Assembly: GCA_016201865.1 (NCBI GenBank) | Contig: JACQCA010000010.1 | Coordinates: 1 to 64,000, forward strand | Length of the DNA stretch: 64,000 bases | Source: Nitrospirota bacterium | GTDB taxonomy: Bacteria > Nitrospirota > Nitrospiria > JACQBZ01 | Direction: 5' to 3' | Part shown: one piece after another, positions 51,944 through 62,216 of the stretch | How positions within the stretch are numbered: position 1 is the first letter of the stretch | Layout of the letters: the number at the start of each line of letters is the position of its first letter | Notes under the pieces: model-generated | The model's input: the letters and a program-made list of their open reading frames with translations, nothing else | What the model was told of the DNA's origin: nothing | The model's database searches: none | Position numbers and translations under genes: made by a program

Positions 51944-52729
51944 ATGACGTTTATGAAAGACGATTTCTTGACCATCGGCGGTGTTCAGCTCAAATCCCGT
52001 CTGATTGTCGGTACGGGAAAGTACAAAGATTTTGAGCAGACCCGGATGGCCATTGAGGCGGCCGGCGCGGACATGGTCACGGTGGCGGTTCGCCGCGTGA
52101 ATATCATCGACCGGGACAAAGAAAATCTGTTGGATTACATCGATCCCAAGAAATATAAAATTCTGCCCAATACGGCCGGTTGTTACACGGCAGATGAGGC
52201 CGTCCGAACCGCGCGGCTGGCCCGGGCTGCCGGCATCACCCATCTCGTCAAGCTGGAGGTTATCGGGGACGCGAAGACCTTGTTCCCGGACACGGCCGGT
52301 CTGATCGAGGCGGCCAAGATCCTCGTCAAGGAAGGATTCGTTGTGCTTCCTTACACGAACGATGATCCCATCGTGGCAAAGAAATTGGAGGACGCGGGTT
52401 GCGCCTGTGTCATGCCGTTGGCCGCGCCTATCGGCTCGGGATTGGGGATCCGTAATCCTTACAATATTCAGATCATCCGCGGGACGGTGAAGGTCCCGGT
52501 GATCGTGGATGCCGGCGTAGGGACGGCGTCCGATGCGGCGATCGCGATGGAAATGGGCTGCGACGGGGTGTTGATGAATACCGGGATTGCGGGGGCGAAA
52601 GATCCGATCGCGATGGCGGAGGCGATGAAATATGCGGTCTGGGCCGGCCGGCTGGCCTATAAGGCCGGAAGAATTCCTAAAAAACCGTATGCGACCGCCA
52701 GCAGTCCGGTCGAAGGAATGATTGAATAG
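51944..52729 (+). CDS. thiG: Thiazole synthase
   Basis: [60 protein letters not shown]. Confidence 0.97.
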
Positions 52730-52738
52730 GAGAAACAA

Positions 52739-53407
52739 TTGCGTCACCGGAATTCTCGGATTGACTTTGATCTTTATCTTATTACGAATCGGCATCAGAC
52801 CGGAGGCCGATCTCTGGAGGTCGTGGTGCGGGAGGCCTTGGCCGGCGGGGTCCGGGCCGTTCAACTGCGTGAAAAGGATCTGCCGGTGCGGGACATTTTT
52901 CGGTGGGCCGAGCGGTTGCGGTCTCTTACGGCCGAGTATGGCGCTAAACTTTTAATCAATGACCGTGTGGATGTCTGTCTGGCGGTTGGGGCCGACGGAG
53001 TGCATCTTCGGGCGGACAGCCTTCCGATTCCGTCCGTGCGAAAATTGGTGGGTCCGGACCGCCTCATCGGACAATCCACGCACAGCGTCACGGAAGGGAT
53101 CGAGGCCGAGCAGGCCGGCGCCGATTTTGTGGTTTTAGGCCCGATCTACGATACCCCTTCGAAACGGTCCATGGGAAAGCCGTTGGGACCGGCCGAGATC
53201 CGTTCGGCCGCGGGTCGCGTCTTGATTCCGGTCTTGGCCATAGGCGGGATACGGCCGGGACGGATCCGTGACGTGATCGAGAGCGGCGCCCGCGGCGTTG
53301 CGGTCGTTTCGGCTCTTCTCGAAAGTCCGAATGTGCGGGCATCGGCCGAGGCGATACTGCGGGAATTAAAAACAACGCGATCGGTCGCGGACGAGGCGCC
53401 GGTTTGA
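52739..53407 (+). CDS. thiE: Thiamine-phosphate synthase
   Basis: AVQLREKDLPVRD, LLINDRVDVCLAVGADGVHL, GQSTHS, VLGPIYDTPSK. Confidence 0.96.
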   Translation: MRHRNSRIDFDLYLITNRHQTGGRSLEVVVREALAGGVRAVQLREKDLPVRDIFRWAERLRSLTAEYGAKLLINDRVDVCLAVGADGVHLRADSLPIPSVRKLVGPDRLIGQSTHSVTEGIEAEQAGADFVVLGPIYDTPSKRSMGKPLGPAEIRSAAGRVLIPVLAIGGIRPGRIRDVIESGARGVAVVSALLESPNVRASAEAILRELKTTRSVADEAPV

Positions 53408-53457: not shown

Positions 53458-53523
53458 CAAAATTAATAAAGAGCCCGCCGGAGGGGATAGGGCAGCTTCC
53501 CTCGATGGATCTTGGGAGATAGA

Positions 53524-55293
53524 ATGGGGGAATCCAAGAAAGGCTCCGGAAGGTTTCACTCTTTGCGCAATACCGTGAAACGGCTCACGGATCGGCTGTC
53601 GGAGAACGAACCTGCCATGAACAAACAAATCGAAGAATACGAGCGAGAGCTCGATAAGCTCCACGTACAGATCCGATCCATGGAGGAAGAACTGCGCCAA
53701 TTGCGTCTCTCCCGGTCGCAGCTCGAACAAGCTCATAAACAAAACGAGAAACTGGCGGCGACGCTGCAAGAAGCCAAATCGCAAATTGATGCCTTGCGGG
53801 TGGAGGTGGAAAAACTGACCGCACCGCCTTCAAGCTACGGCATCTTTTCCGGTGGAAACGAGGACGGCACCGTCAATGTGTATGTCGCCGGCCGCAAGAT
53901 GAAGGTCAACGTCCATCCCTCGATTAAAGTGAAGGACCTCCGAAAGGGTCAGGAACTGGTCCTTAACGAGGCCTTGAACGTGGTCGAGACGAAGGGATTT
54001 GACGGGCAGGGCGAGGTGGTCCGCCTGAAAGATCTGATCGGCGATAAACGGGCCGTCGTGACGCTGCACGCCGATGAAGAGCGGGTGGCCGAATTGGCCG
54101 AGCCGCTGCTTCACGAGAAGCTCAGTGTCGGCGACCATCTTCTGCTGGATGCGCGATCCGGTTGTTTGCTGGAAAAACTTCCCAAGTCCGAGGTGGGGGA
54201 GTTGGTTTTAGAAGAGGTGCCGGATGTCGGTTATGAAGATATCGGCGGGCTCGAAAAACAGATCGAGACGATCAAGGATGCCGTCGAACTGCCGTTCCTG
54301 CATCCGGATCTGTTCGCCCAATACCGGCTCCTTCCTCCGAAAGGCATCCTATTATACGGACCTCCCGGTTGCGGGAAAACCTTGATCGCGAAGGCCGTGG
54401 CCAATTCGATCGCCAAGAAACTGGCCCACCGCACGGGAAAGGACGTCCGGAGTTTCTTCCTGCATGTGAAAGGTCCGGAACTTCTCGACAAGTATGTCGG
54501 TGAGAGCGAGCGCCAGATCCGCGAGGTCTTCAAAAAGGCCAAGGAGAAAGCGGAAGAAGGGATGCCGGTCATCGTTTTCTTCGATGAGATGGATGCCCTG
54601 TTCCGAACGCGGGGAACCGGCATTTCGTCCGACATCGAGTCCACTATTGTTCCCCAGTTCCTTTCGGAGATCGACGGTGTCGAACGCCTCCGGAACGTGA
54701 TCGTCATCGGCGCCAGCAACCGGCAGGACTTGATCGACCCGGCCATCCTGCGACCCGGACGTCTGGACGTGAAGATCCGGATTGATCGGCCCGACAAGCG
54801 GGCGGCCAAAGCGGTTTTCTCGAAGTACCTCCGGCCGGATTTGCCGTATCATCCCGATGAGTTGGCGAGGGACGGCGGCCATGCCGCGGCCATGGTCGAA
54901 CGATTGACGGAACAGACCGTGGAACAGATGTACAGCCAGAGCGAAGAGAACAAGTTCCTGGAGGTCACCTACGCCAATGGTGAAAAAGAAATGCTCTACT
55001 TTAAGGATTTCGTCAGCGGTGCCTTGATCGAAGGGGTGGTGGCTCGGGCCAAGAAATACGCCATCAAGCGGATGATTTCAACAGGCCAGGGCGGGATCCG
55101 GAGCGAGGATCTTCTTCAGGCGACGCGCGACGAGTTTACGGAACATGAAGACCTGCCCAATACCACACAGCCGGACGACTGGGCCAAGATTGCCGGGAGG
55201 AAGGGTGAAAAGATCGTTCATGTACGAACGATGGGGACCAAAGCGACCGACCCGCGACAGATCGATACGATCTCGACGGGTCACTACCTCTGA
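53524..55293 (+). CDS. mpa: Proteasome-associated AAA ATPase (Mpa/ARC)
   Basis: N-terminal coiled coil, [33 protein letters not shown]-terminal GHYL. Confidence 0.96.
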
Positions 55294-55314: not shown

Positions 55315-56793
55315 ATGATCAAACGCATCATGGGGACAGAAACGGAATTCGGCATTGCGACACGCAATCCGGAGGCCTTGGATCCCGTCTCCACGTCTCT
55401 TCTCCTGATCAACCATTATCCCTCCCTTCCGTCTACCCGAGTGCTTTGGGACTACGAACACGAGAATCCGTTGTTGGATGTGCGGGGTTTTGAGGTCGAG
55501 GGGGAACGGGAGCGGCCCGGGCCGGAGTATAACCGCCTCCTCAATAAGGTGTTGGCCAACGGAGGCCGTTTGTATGTGGATGGAGCCCATCCGGAATATT
55601 CCACGCCTGAGTGCACCAATTCACGGGATGTGGTGATTTACGAAAAGGCCGGCGATCGGATCCTCGGTCAATGTTGTGAACACGCCGGTCGGATCAAGGC
55701 GCAAGACCCGTTGGTCGTCTATCGTAATAACACGGATGGAAAAGGAAACAGTTACGGCTATCATGAAAACTATTTGGTGGACCGATCCGTTCCTTTTGAA
55801 ATGCTGATGAGGGCTTTGACGCCGTTCTTTGTGACGCGACAGATCTACGCCGGATCCGGCAAGGTCGGTGCTGAGAATCGAATGCCGCCTTTGCCGTTCC
55901 AGATTTCCCAAAGAGCGGACTTCTTTGAGACGCTGGTGGATCTCAATACCATGGTCAAGCGTCCGATCATCAATACGCGGGACGAACCCCACGCCGACGC
56001 CTCCAAATACCGTCGCCTCCATGTCATCGTCGGGGATGCAAATATGGCCGAGTGTTCCACGTATCTTAAAGTGGGTTCAACGGCGATTGTGTTGACGATG
56101 ATCGAGGAAAAATGGCCGTTACCCGAGGTCGAGTTGGAAGATCCCGTTCGAGCCATCAAAGAGGTGTCGCGGGATGTCGGTTTAAAGTCGGCGATCCGTT
56201 TGTCGAACGGTCGGGGGTACACGGCCGTTGAGATTCAAAGGCTTTATCTTGAAGCGGCGTATCGTTTCTTCGAAGAACACGAAGCGGATCCGGTGACAAG
56301 GGACGTCCTGAAGAAATGGAACGAGGTCCTCAACCGACTCCAAGAAGATCCGATGCAGCTTTCCCGCGAGATCGACTGGGTGATCAAACTGGAACTGATC
56401 CGGTCCTATATGGAGAAAAAACAGTGCGGTTGGGGAGATGCCCGTCTTGCAATGATGGACCTTCAATACCATGATCTTCGTCCGGAGAAGGGTCTGTACG
56501 CCGCTTTGGAAAAAGGACATTATGTGGACCGCATCACGACGGATCGAGAGATCACGCACGCCGAACAGAATCCTCCGACCGATACGCGGGCCTATTTTCG
56601 AGGAACCTGCCTGAAGAAGTTTCCCAAAGAGGTGTACGCGACCAGTTGGAGTTCGATCCTCTTTGACGTTGGAAACGGGACCATCAAGAAGGTGCCCTTA
56701 ATGGAACCTTTGCGTGGGACGGAAAGCCTGACGCGGTCGCTTTTGGAGTCGGCCGACACCGTTGAGGACGTCTTGAACCGTCTGAGCATGTGA
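55315..56793 (+). CDS. dop: Depupylase/deamidase Dop
   Basis: MGTETEFGIATRNP, long insertion LWDYEHENPLLDVRGFEVEGE, LYVDGAHPEYSTPECTNSRDVVIYEKAGD. Confidence 0.94.
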   Translation: MIKRIMGTETEFGIATRNPEALDPVSTSLLLINHYPSLPSTRVLWDYEHENPLLDVRGFEVEGERERPGPEYNRLLNKVLANGGRLYVDGAHPEYSTPECTNSRDVVIYEKAGDRILGQCCEHAGRIKAQDPLVVYRNNTDGKGNSYGYHENYLVDRSVPFEMLMRALTPFFVTRQIYAGSGKVGAENRMPPLPFQISQRADFFETLVDLNTMVKRPIINTRDEPHADASKYRRLHVIVGDANMAECSTYLKVGSTAIVLTMIEEKWPLPEVELEDPVRAIKEVSRDVGLKSAIRLSNGRGYTAVEIQRLYLEAAYRFFEEHEADPVTRDVLKKWNEVLNRLQEDPMQLSREIDWVIKLELIRSYMEKKQCGWGDARLAMMDLQYHDLRPEKGLYAALEKGHYVDRITTDREITHAEQNPPTDTRAYFRGTCLKKFPKEVYATSWSSILFDVGNGTIKKVPLMEPLRGTESLTRSLLESADTVEDVLNRLSM

Positions 56794-56823
56794 GGGGTGA
56801 TCGATTTAAAGGGGGTGAAAACC

Positions 56824-57024
56824 TTGTCCAAGCAAGAACACAAAACAGACCGGAAGAAAGAGGCCGGAAAGAAAGAGGAAGAGGGCGGAGCCAATCCCAA
56901 GACTGCTGAGAAAGGTAAAAAAATAAAGGAAGACCTGGATAAGCTCATGGAGAAGATTGACGACGTGCTGGAGGAGAATGCGGAAGAGTTCGTTAAGAAT
57001 TACGTCCAGAAGGGCGGGGAGTAG
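56824..57024 (+). CDS. pup: Prokaryotic ubiquitin-like protein Pup
   Basis: 66-aa Lys/Glu-rich protein ending KIDDVLEENAEEFVKNYVQKGGE; TTG start preceded by AAAGGGGG. Confidence 0.95.
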   Translation: MSKQEHKTDRKKEAGKKEEEGGANPKTAEKGKKIKEDLDKLMEKIDDVLEENAEEFVKNYVQKGGE

Positions 57025-57026
57025 AC

Positions 57027-57842
57027 GTGATACTCAAATCTGAAAGTCCGTTTCAAGATCCGGGGTCCAGTTTCTATGATTGGTTGTCGGTGCATCATCC
57101 CGATGCCCTGCTGGGTTTCCGTCCGCGCGCGGGGGCGGAGGGCGGGGGCCCGTCCCCGGCCGCAAGAATCTCGCATGGGACGACCGTCCTGGCCCTGAAA
57201 TACAAAGACGGAGTGATCATTGCGGGCGATCGCATGGCCACGGAGGGGTATCAAGTGTCGGCCCGTCGGATCGAAAAGGTCTATAAGATGGATGAGCATT
57301 CCGCCATCGCCATCGCCGGTGCCGCCGGGCCGTGCATCGAACTGGCCAAGCTGTTTCAGACCGAACTGGAACATTATGAAAAATTGGAAGGCGCGGAATT
57401 ATCCATTGACGGAAAGGCGAACAAACTGGCCCAGATGGTCAAAGGGAATCTTCCCATGGCTTTTCAGGGTCTGATCGTGGTCCCGATTTTTGTGGGATAT
57501 GATCCGAAACGGAGCGAGGGCCGTATTTTTAAATACGACATCACCGGCGGGCGATATGAAGAGACCGATTATTTCTCGACCGGATCCGGAGGGAAGGACG
57601 CGCGCACGACGATGAAGAAACTGTATCAACCGGGCATGGAGGAGCCGGAAGCCGTCCGGACGGTGCTAGAGGCGCTCTATGACGCGTCCGAGGAAGATAT
57701 CGGAACCGGCGGACCGGATTTGATTCGAGGGATCTACCCGACCGTGAAAACCATAACGGTCAAAGGGGTCTCGGATGTGCCGGAAAGTCAGATTCATCAG
57801 ATCTATGAACGGCTGATCGAAAAGCGGAAGCGGGAGACCTAA
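57027..57842 (+). CDS. prcB: 20S proteasome beta subunit
   Basis: Propeptide ending SHG, then TTVLALKYKDGVIIAGDRMATEGYQV (catalytic Thr codon at 57180). Confidence 0.96.
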   Translation: MILKSESPFQDPGSSFYDWLSVHHPDALLGFRPRAGAEGGGPSPAARISHGTTVLALKYKDGVIIAGDRMATEGYQVSARRIEKVYKMDEHSAIAIAGAAGPCIELAKLFQTELEHYEKLEGAELSIDGKANKLAQMVKGNLPMAFQGLIVVPIFVGYDPKRSEGRIFKYDITGGRYEETDYFSTGSGGKDARTTMKKLYQPGMEEPEAVRTVLEALYDASEEDIGTGGPDLIRGIYPTVKTITVKGVSDVPESQIHQIYERLIEKRKRET

Positions 57843-57845
57843 GAG

Positions 57846-58532
57846 ATGGCCATTCCTTATTACGTTCCACCCGAGCAGATGATGCAGGACAGGGCGGAAT
57901 ATGCCAAAAAGGGGATTGCAAAGGGCCGATCGATTGTGGCGATGGAGTACCAGGATGGGATACTCATGGTTGCGGACAACCCCAGCATTTCCCTGAACAA
58001 GGTTTCGGAGATCTACGACGCCATTGCGTTTCTGGGCGCGGGGCGATACAGCGAGTTTGAGAATCTGAGGAAGGCGGGCATCCGGCATGCCGATCTCAAA
58101 GGGTATCTCTACAGTCGAGAAGATGTCACGGCCAAATCGCTGGCGAATGCCTACTCGCAGGTTCTGGGGACGACTTTCAGCCAGGAGGTGAAGCCCCTGG
58201 AAGTCGAGATCGCCGTTGTCGCCGTGGGAGAAGCCAGCCAGTCCAATGAGATTTATCGAATATCCTTTGATGGGAGTATTACGGACGAACGCGGTTTTAC
58301 GGTGATCGGCGGACGGTCCGAGGCCATTATGGTCTTCCTCAAGGACCGCTACAAAGCGGGTCTGCCTCTGTCGGACGCGCTTACGTTATGCAAGGAGGCC
58401 GTCGAGAACACGGCCACTCCCCGGCTGGTGATCCAAACGCTGGAAGTGGCGGTGTTGGATCGCAACCGACAGGGACGGAAATTCCGGCGGTTGACAACGG
58501 ACGAGATTATGGAATTGGTCCATTCCCGATAA
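57846..58532 (+). CDS. prcA: 20S proteasome alpha subunit
   Basis: YYVPPEQMMQDRAEYAKKGIAKGRSIVAMEYQDGILMVADNPS. Confidence 0.95.
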   Translation: MAIPYYVPPEQMMQDRAEYAKKGIAKGRSIVAMEYQDGILMVADNPSISLNKVSEIYDAIAFLGAGRYSEFENLRKAGIRHADLKGYLYSREDVTAKSLANAYSQVLGTTFSQEVKPLEVEIAVVAVGEASQSNEIYRISFDGSITDERGFTVIGGRSEAIMVFLKDRYKAGLPLSDALTLCKEAVENTATPRLVIQTLEVAVLDRNRQGRKFRRLTTDEIMELVHSR

Positions 58533-58542
58533 GGGGATTCCC

Positions 58543-59919
58543 ATGAGGCCGCGCATCTTTGGGCTGGAAAACGAGTACGGTTTGATCTTCTCACCGAACG
58601 GCAAGGTCTATCTACCGGTTGAAAAAGTGTTGGGTTATATTTTTGAAGGGTTGATTCCAAACAGTTGGCCGTCGAATGCCTTCCTGACGAACGGGGCCCG
58701 GTTTTATCAAGACACGGGATGCCACCCGGAATACTCCACGCCCGAATGCGATAACATCCTGGATCTGGTGATGCACGACAAGGCGGGCGAGCGCCTGGTG
58801 GAAGGTTGTCTGCCCTTGGCGGAAGAACGGCTCCGAGAAGAGGGGCTCAACGGTGAAATCTATATTTTCAAAAACAACACCGATTCCATGGGAAACACGT
58901 ACGGTTGTCATGAAAATTACCTCATGAAGCGGGATGTAGATTTCTGGAAGGTCACGGAACAACTGATCCCGTTTTTTGTCACCCGCCAGATCTATGCCGG
59001 CGCCGGTAAACTTCTCCGGTTGTCGGGGAAAACGCATTTTTTTATTTCCCAACGGGCGCAGCATATGCATGAAAAGACGTCTTCGTCCACGACATCTTCT
59101 CGAAGCATCATCAACACGCGGGATGAGCCCCATGCCGATGCGGAGAAATACCGGCGGCTTCACATCATCGTCGGCGATTCGAATATGTCCGAGTTCGCCA
59201 CCTTGATGAAGGTGGGGGTTACCGCCGTTGTTCTGTCGATGATCGAGGAGGGTTACGCCGTTCCGAATATTGAATTGGAAGACCCCGTGAAAACCATCCG
59301 GGAGATCTCGAGGGACACGACCCTCAAGCGGCGGGTCAAACTCGAAGACGGTCGGGAACTCACGGCGATCGAGATCCAGCGGATCTACCTGGAGCGGGCG
59401 TGCGATTATCTGGCGACTGTCGAAGTCGATTCCATCACCCATGACATCGTCAAAAAATGGGAAGATACCTTGAATCAGTTGGAAGAGGATCCGATCCAGC
59501 TGTCCCGTCAAATCGATTGGGTCATGAAGAAGGAGCTGATGATGGCCTACATGGAGAAGAAGGACTGCGGGTGGGATGATCCTCGGATCTTACTGATGGA
59601 TCTCCAGTATCATGATGTGAATCGATCCCGCGGGCTGTACTATCTCTTGGAAAAGATGGATATGGTTGAGAAGGTAGTGGATGAGGAAGACGTTTTGTCG
59701 GCGATGAGCGAGCCGCCTCAGACCACGCGGGCCAAGATCCGGGGCGATTTCATCCGGTTTGCTCGGGAAAAGAACCGTTCCTATACGGTGGATTGGACCT
59801 ATCTCAAACTCAACGGCTATTGGGAAGAAACCATTCTCTGTATGGACCCGTTTAGCGCATCCGATAGGAGGGTCGAGGAATTAATCGCTGCATCCGCCGG
59901 TCACCGATTCAACCGGTAA
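58543..59919 (+). CDS. pafA: Pup ligase PafA
   Basis: RIFGLENEYGLIF, FLTNGARFYQDTGCHPEYSTPECDN; no Dop-type loop. Confidence 0.94.
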   Translation: MRPRIFGLENEYGLIFSPNGKVYLPVEKVLGYIFEGLIPNSWPSNAFLTNGARFYQDTGCHPEYSTPECDNILDLVMHDKAGERLVEGCLPLAEERLREEGLNGEIYIFKNNTDSMGNTYGCHENYLMKRDVDFWKVTEQLIPFFVTRQIYAGAGKLLRLSGKTHFFISQRAQHMHEKTSSSTTSSRSIINTRDEPHADAEKYRRLHIIVGDSNMSEFATLMKVGVTAVVLSMIEEGYAVPNIELEDPVKTIREISRDTTLKRRVKLEDGRELTAIEIQRIYLERACDYLATVEVDSITHDIVKKWEDTLNQLEEDPIQLSRQIDWVMKKELMMAYMEKKDCGWDDPRILLMDLQYHDVNRSRGLYYLLEKMDMVEKVVDEEDVLSAMSEPPQTTRAKIRGDFIRFAREKNRSYTVDWTYLKLNGYWEETILCMDPFSASDRRVEELIAASAGHRFNR

Positions 59920-59927
59920 CCCTTCCC

Positions 59928-60800
59928 ATGCTCCTGCGTCTCTTTTGCCTGATCGCGGTCGGAATAGCGCCGTTCCTTCCCGCGACGGTTTTTTCGGAAG
60001 AACCGTCGCGATCCGAGACCGTCGCTCCCATCCGGGCGAAGCAGGGGGATGTGTTCTATTTTTCCGTTCAGGTCGGACCCGATGCCGTGTCGGTCGAGGG
60101 GCGATTCCTCAACCGGCCCGTTCCTTTTTTTAAGATGGGGAATCCACAGGAATTCGGGGCCTTGATCGGGGTTGACCTTGCGGACCCGCCCGCTCACGAT
60201 GATTTGCTTGTGGAGATATCCGATGCCGCAGGGAAACGGGAACTGCGTCGCTATCCGGTCGAAGTGCTTCCGGTTCATTTTTTAACGCAGGAGTTGACGG
60301 TGCCCAAGAACTATGTCGATCTGGATGAAGAAAGCAGCAAACGGGCTGCGGAGGAGCAGGAAAAGATTTTGCAATCGCTCGGCAAGATCACGGTCCAAAA
60401 ATTCTGGGCGGGTCGCTTTATGATGCCGGTCGAGGGCAAGATTGCCGGGAGTTTTGGATTGCGACGGATCATGAACGGCCAACCCCGCTCCCCTCACAGC
60501 GGGGAAGACATCAACGCGCCCCAAGGAACGGACGTCCGTGCCACCAATGAAGGCATCGTCGCATTGGTGGGGGATTTCTTCTTCAGCGGAAAGAGCATCA
60601 TCTTAGATCACGGCCTGGGGCTCTACAGCATGTATTTCCACCTGGATCAGGTGGACGTTGCGGAGGGGAGGAGAGTCCGCAAGGGAGACGTCATCGGCAA
60701 GGTGGGAGCGACGGGCCGGGCGACCGGCCCGCATCTCCATTGGGGGACCCGGCTCAACGGCGCCCGCGTCAATCCGTTGTCGATTTTAAATATTGAATGA
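59928..60800 (+). CDS. M23 family metallopeptidase (LytM/peptidoglycan endopeptidase-like)
   Basis: PHSGEDINAPQGTDVRATNEGIVALVGDFFFSGKSIILDHGLGLYSMYFHL...GATGRATGPHLHWG. Confidence 0.95.
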   Translation: MLLRLFCLIAVGIAPFLPATVFSEEPSRSETVAPIRAKQGDVFYFSVQVGPDAVSVEGRFLNRPVPFFKMGNPQEFGALIGVDLADPPAHDDLLVEISDAAGKRELRRYPVEVLPVHFLTQELTVPKNYVDLDEESSKRAAEEQEKILQSLGKITVQKFWAGRFMMPVEGKIAGSFGLRRIMNGQPRSPHSGEDINAPQGTDVRATNEGIVALVGDFFFSGKSIILDHGLGLYSMYFHLDQVDVAEGRRVRKGDVIGKVGATGRATGPHLHWGTRLNGARVNPLSILNIE

Positions 60801-60810
60801 GGTCTGCCCC

Positions 60811-61587
60811 GTGAACGTAGCCTTGACCATCGCCGGTTCGGATCCGACGGGCGGCGCCGGAATTCAGGCCGACCTGAGGACGTTTGCGAAGTTTAACGTG
60901 CACGGCGCCGCGGTGATCGCCTCCTTGACGATCCAGAGCACCCTCGGGATTCAGGCCGTGGTCAAGATTCCACCGGACCTGCTCCGGAAACAGATCACGA
61001 CGCTGCTGGAGGATATGACGGTTGATGCCGTGAAGACGGGAATGCTTGTGGATGGAGAGAGCATTGAAATTGTTTCAGAGCTTCTTAAAAAATACCGGTT
61101 GATCCGCTATGTCTTGGATCCGATCGTTCGTTCATCCACCGGCTACCCGATTCTTAAGAAGGACGACGTCGAATTGTTAAAGAAGACGCTGCTTCCTCAG
61201 GCCCTCCTCGTGACGCCGAATCTGAAGGAGGCCGAGGCCTTGACGGGAATGTCGGTGCAGACCGAAAAAGAGATGGAGCGAGCCGCCCTGGAGATCCAGG
61301 CGATGGGGCCCCAATATGTCCTGATCAAAGGGGGGCACTTAAAAGGGTCCGCCGTGGATCTGTTGTTCGGGGAAGGCGAGATCCGGCCTTTCCGGAAGCC
61401 CCGCGTTCAGGCCAAGCGACTGCACGGCGCCGGGTGCATCCTTTCGGCCGCGATTACGGCCGGTCTGGCCGCCGGATCCGGCGTCGAGCGGGCCGTTGAA
61501 AAAGCGAAAGGCTTTGTCCACCGCGCGATTCGGACGGCCGCGATGCCCGGCCATGGCCGACACCTGCTGAATCTGACGTCGAATTAG
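60811..61587 (+). CDS. thiD: Hydroxymethylpyrimidine/phosphomethylpyrimidine kinase
   Basis: ALTIAGSDPTGGAGIQADLRTF, LVTPNLKEAEALTGM, IKGGHL. Confidence 0.96.
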   Translation: MNVALTIAGSDPTGGAGIQADLRTFAKFNVHGAAVIASLTIQSTLGIQAVVKIPPDLLRKQITTLLEDMTVDAVKTGMLVDGESIEIVSELLKKYRLIRYVLDPIVRSSTGYPILKKDDVELLKKTLLPQALLVTPNLKEAEALTGMSVQTEKEMERAALEIQAMGPQYVLIKGGHLKGSAVDLLFGEGEIRPFRKPRVQAKRLHGAGCILSAAITAGLAAGSGVERAVEKAKGFVHRAIRTAAMPGHGRHLLNLTSN

Positions 61588-61649: not shown

Positions 61650-62216
61650 ATGGCCGAGTCGGTTCCTGAATATCATCCCTTGAGGCAACTGGTCACCGCT
61701 CTGACGGAGCGGACCTTCGCTCAGAAATTGCGATGGTCCGATATCCATGTGGTCCGCTATCTGTCCAACATGCTGGTGGATTTTACCCATGTGGATCATC
61801 TTTACCGCATCCGGAACGGCAAAGGGAAACGGCTTGATGAGGTGGCCGACATGCTGCTCGAGGCCGATCTGCTGCTAAACGCCGGCTCCTTCGAACGGGA
61901 GCGGGAGGTCCACCGGCATATCGGCGACCTGACACTGTTCATGGTCGGGATTTTTCCGGAATTCCTTAAACGGATGAAGGTCCGGCAATGGATCCACCAC
62001 CCGGATTTTTTGATGGATTACGTCAAAGTGGGGAAGCATTCCTATCGGAACGTGTCCGAGTTCAACTACGGTGAATATAAACAGTTTGTGCCGCTCTTTC
62101 GGAAACTTTCCGATAATTTTGAGCTCTGCATCATCGGCCTGGGATACGTCAAGGACGCTCTGGATCGCCTGCAGCACGCGGAATATCAACAAGCGAAGCG
62201 AATTTTGCTCACCTGA
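61650..62216 (+). CDS. Conserved hypothetical protein
   Basis: 188-aa ORF with upstream TATAAT (TGTGGTATAATTTTAG) and AAAGGATGG RBS. Confidence 0.7.
   Translation: MAESVPEYHPLRQLVTALTERTFAQKLRWSDIHVVRYLSNMLVDFTHVDHLYRIRNGKGKRLDEVADMLLEADLLLNAGSFEREREVHRHIGDLTLFMVGIFPEFLKRMKVRQWIHHPDFLMDYVKVGKHSYRNVSEFNYGEYKQFVPLFRKLSDNFELCIIGLGYVKDALDRLQHAEYQQAKRILLT

Follow-up and report, generated by a model that had tools for sequence, protein, structure and literature searches.

The locus analysed here raises two questions: which small tag its proteasome system uses, Pup or UBact, and what a depupylase/deamidase gene (dop) might do beside a tag whose last residue is already Glu. In the window (the whole stretch of 64,000 nucleotides under study), the tag gene lies within the gene order mpa-dop-pup-prcB-prcA-pafA, in which all genes are on the forward strand and are separated by short gaps (Table 1); dop adjoins pup on its 5' side, and prcB lies 2 bases 3' of it.

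Table 1. Coordinates of the proteasome operon and flanking genes, as positions in the window
Feature	Coordinates	Strand	Product	Family score
thiG and thiE (TMP synthase)	51944-53407			
mpa/ARC, proteasomal ATPase	53512-55293	+	593 aa as listed, start not refined	TIGR03689 755 bits (cut-off 505)
dop, depupylase/deamidase family	55315-56793	+	492 aa	TIGR03688 583 bits (cut-off 492)
pup	56824-57024	+	66 aa, TTG start, QKGGE end (Glu = GAG)	Pfam Pup 74.9 bits (cut-off 27); TIGR03687 57.4 bits (cut-off 41.45)
prcB, 20S proteasome beta subunit	57027-57842	+		TIGR03690 309 bits (cut-off 192)
prcA, 20S proteasome alpha subunit	57846-58532	+		TIGR03691 305 bits (cut-off 139)
pafA, Pup ligase	58543-59919	+	458 aa	TIGR03686 569 bits (cut-off 551)
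M23 peptidase gene	59928-60800			
thiD-like phosphomethylpyrimidine kinase	60793-61587			
Open reading frame	61650-62216		188 aa	no Pfam match at E 0.001

The start of pup was placed at the TTG codon at 56824, which has a ribosome-binding-like site, AGGGGGTG, just 5' of it; the codon is TTG in close relatives too, and ATG stands there in more distant relatives. A longer reading frame from a GTG at 56797 (75 aa) was disfavoured because of this site and of the conservation in relatives. At the other end, the final sense codon GAG is followed by the stop TAG (57022-57024), and the C-terminal Glu is thus encoded directly, as a previous reading of the letters alone (hereafter the sequence-only reading) had claimed.

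The same reading took the protein for a true Pup and not a UBact, and comparison with both families bears this out. The matches to Pfam Pup and TIGR03687 have E values of 9.6e-21 and 1e-15, respectively, and hence are not due to chance. The tail, YVQKGGE, has the GG[E/Q] end that is a criterion of PF05639/TIGR03687, and the C-terminus, IDDVLEENAEEFVKNYVQKGGE, is identical to the mycobacterial Pup string at 18 of 22 positions. This count, made in the sequence-only reading, was correct on recounting; the mycobacterial string is consistent with the PDB chains of M. tuberculosis Pup, which are the nearest solved chains to our protein. A UBact-type tag would be conceivable, since UBact can be part of proteasome loci in Gram-negative bacteria, and among 41 genomes of the class, all of which have Pup, 26 also have UBact above the cut-off. 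However, the UBact model NF033388 gives the protein 11.5 bits (cut-off 35, E 0.26), the real UBacts of relatives end in RQRTG[E/Q] and look different, and UBact is absent from the source genome and from the seven members of its family. With this score and this tail (YVQKGGE rather than RTG[E/Q]), the UBact identity is refuted, and we would give it practically no weight: the protein is a true Pup, UBact being ruled out by the family scores.

The counts in the class also correct another claim of the sequence-only reading, namely that such loci often carry UBact instead of Pup. In 26 of the 41 genomes the two occur together, and in the source genome's family it is the Pup system that stands alone (UBact in 0/7). 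More broadly, 189 of 198 class genomes have a Pup. UBact-bearing genomes mostly have four PafA/Dop-family genes rather than two. In the source genome (2.47 Mb, 95% complete) there are one Pup and two Pup-ligase-family genes; a second tag, a UBact or a second PafA/Dop pair was looked for in it, and none was found. UBact, like Pup, is a small tag that ends in G[E/Q] and is encoded beside PafA/Dop homologues, but it differs in its body and in its RTG[E/Q] tail, and it occupies a second locus in most relatives.

In many Nitrospiria (e.g., G028, G036 and G018), a Pup-type and a UBact-type tagging system coexist; both look complete, and each comes with a separate PafA/Dop pair. On TIGR03688, the Dop homologues linked to UBact reach 441-487 bits, slightly short of the cut-off of 492. 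In G028, the UBact gene is at 0.934 Mb, and Pup is at 3.229 Mb. While pup is placed between dop and prcB in our window, it lies outside the dop-prcBA-pafA operon, 43-215 kb away, in eight f2/f12 genomes (G028, G036, G007, G018, G022, G026, G038 and G040). The idea that UBact sits beside dop in those Nitrospira loci that have no adjacent pup was rejected, as prcB directly follows dop in most loci read and UBact is encoded elsewhere, at a second locus. According to a review, Leptospirillum ferrooxidans has the complete system twice, and the Pup of the second copy has no GGE (PMC3511204); we suspect that this second tag is a candidate UBact.

All five neighbours of pup exceed their own NCBIfam equivalog cut-offs. 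That the gene 5' of pup is Dop and not PafA is indicated by the PafA model, which gives it 410 bits (cut-off 551); conversely, PafA scores 427 bits on the Dop model, below that model's cut-off. The Dop protein has the Dop-loop motif WDYEHENPLLDVRGFEV at residues 45-61 and its catalytic Asp at residue 89, which is in register with Asp94 of Acidothermus Dop (4b0r) in the alignment. The sequence-only reading was right that dop is retained, and the Dop encoded next to pup is complete. In PafA, aligned with the solved structure of the Corynebacterium glutamicum enzyme (4b0t), the catalytic Asp is residue 57. Mpa ends in GHYL, which resembles the gate-opening GQYL motif, and Thr1 of PrcB is expected, from reading by eye, to be the first T of TTVLALKY. 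Outside the operon, thiamine genes flank it on both sides, the M23 peptidase gene sits between pafA and the thiD-like gene, and the 188-aa reading frame comes after the latter.

The sequence of this locus shows which genes are present, which families they belong to, that the catalytic motifs are conserved and that Pup ends in Glu, whereas all activities are assigned from characterised relatives and families (PMC3511204, PMC8223512, PMC12288473). On this basis, it is very likely that we are looking at a Pup-proteasome operon of the ordinary kind, from an uncultured member of the Nitrospirota (class Nitrospiria). Pup would be translated with a C-terminal Glu and would be competent for ligation with no deamidation step, so that PafA could ligate it directly, first phosphorylating its gamma-carboxylate and then joining it to substrate lysines. 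Mpa would recognise the tag and deliver the tagged protein to the PrcAB 20S core for degradation. Dop would remove Pup from conjugates and recycle it, and very probably could still deamidate a Pup that ended in Gln. That a Pup ending in Glu (PupGlu) needs no deamidation, as also held in the sequence-only reading, had already been stated in the literature (PMC12288473).

The Lys-rich N-terminal half of the protein, to which the sequence-only reading had drawn attention, is indeed basic: it has 11 Lys or Arg against 7 Asp or Glu (net +4), and the whole protein has 15 Lys in 66 aa. It might be imagined from these numbers that Pup is itself heavily pupylated, forming chains, or that it has a non-degradative role. 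However, the same operon encodes Mpa and a full 20S core, polypupylation in bacteria is stated to lack any evidence (PMC12288473), and we regard this possibility as very improbable. The net charge of the N-terminal half ranges from 0 to +5 across 30 class genomes, and a basic half is thus common to the class.

The Glu end singled out in the sequence-only reading is no surprise, being the usual state in class Nitrospiria. When the Pup reading frame was read in 30 distinct class genomes (loci L082-L111), the protein ended in GGE in 28 and in GGQ in 2. A scan for DNA patterns in 396 genomes of the phylum gave QKGGE followed by a stop in 185 and QKGGQ followed by a stop in 44, both figures including chance matches. 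By reading the frames, chance QKGGQ matches with no in-frame Pup body were discarded, and a Gln-ended Pup was confirmed in 11 class genomes. One further Pup, at locus L223 of the single-contig genome G199, is divergent (43 bits) and contains a stretch that looks duplicated, ENAVKENAAEFVKNNVQKGGE.

Dop and PafA from the Pup-type locus were aligned and concatenated for 34 genomes, and a maximum-likelihood tree was built. The set comprised every genome with a confirmed Gln end (11) together with 23 Glu genomes drawn from the main genera. The end residue of Pup needs 7 Glu/Gln changes on this tree (bootstrap range 7-8), a figure that is the minimum number of events among 34 rows and not a rate, the sample having been picked to hold every Gln case found. 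All 7 remain forced when only well-supported branches are counted. Sister genomes can differ in this residue, with Gln in G018 and Glu in G024, and likewise Gln in G031 and Glu in G008; the Glu states of key neighbours in the tree were verified by reading their Pup. Dop is above the family cut-off in all 34 genomes, and Glu and Gln lineages have similar active-site motifs in both Dop and PafA. Both ends occur in UBact as well (of the 26 UBact loci read, L118 and L127 among them, 24 encode RTGE and 2 RTGQ), which indicates that the alternation is not peculiar to Pup.

Since a Gln-ended Pup cannot be ligated before it is deamidated, such repeated change is most readily explained by a Dop that can still deamidate in Glu lineages. 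It has been pointed out that deamidation is chemically equivalent to depupylation (PMC8223512), and because the chemistry is the same, Dop could still act on a Gln-ended Pup. We therefore suggest, with the repeated switching as our whole basis, that the Dop of PupGlu lineages probably keeps its deamidase ability. It might be argued instead that such a Dop has become a pure depupylase and has lost this ability, as PupGlu needs no deamidation and there would be no selection for deamidating free Pup (PMC12288473). Nevertheless, at least 7 changes with Dop in every genome and with unchanged active-site motifs, together with the shared chemistry, make such a loss unlikely. The suggestion in the sequence-only reading that Dop is presumably kept only for depupylation thus holds in part: with PupGlu the enzyme is stated mainly to depupylate (PMC12288473), but the word "only" is doubtful given these switches. 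A retained, unused deamidase ability fits a broader picture that we consider fairly likely, in which the end of Pup has flipped repeatedly between Glu and Gln in Nitrospiria with Dop always present, and in which the choice of residue is close to neutral provided that Dop is retained for depupylation.

A Glu-ended Nitrospirota Pup is already known in kind, as the Nitrospirae ends, PupGlu and the pathway are all covered by earlier work. Iyer et al. described a G[EQ] end in Nitrospirae Pups in 2008 (PMC2588565), many species encode PupGlu (PMC12288473), and the pathway was described in Nitrospirae, where it probably arrived by transfer from actinobacteria (PMC7947786, PMC3511204). The protein resembles the Pups of both groups (PF05639/TIGR03687) in family score, GG[E/Q] end, the conserved IDDVLEENAEEFV region and its dop/prcBA/pafA neighbours, and there is no substantial difference, the basic Lys-rich half being the norm of the class. 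The Dop genes most similar to ours (85-86% identity) come from metagenome-assembled genomes of Nitrospirae/Nitrospiria, several of which originate from groundwater. The pupylation system of Corynebacterium glutamicum (mpa/pup/pafA/dop) uses the same families of tag, ligase and depupylase, but that species has no 20S core (PMC12288473), whereas one is present in our operon. Repeated Glu/Gln switching was not met in the literature searched, from which most subscription papers were outside coverage.

Taken alone, the pup locus is one further Nitrospirota Pup-proteasome operon, of which the lability of the end residue is the only mildly interesting part. Most of the sampled Nitrospiria run Pup and UBact systems in parallel, which makes them good organisms for asking what the role of each tag is. 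The comparison of Glu and Gln ends bears on a small and old question, namely why some Pups need deamidation, and the switch appears to be frequent and is probably near-neutral. If this is true, near-neutral switching would offer a simple reason for the existence of the mycobacterial deamidation step.
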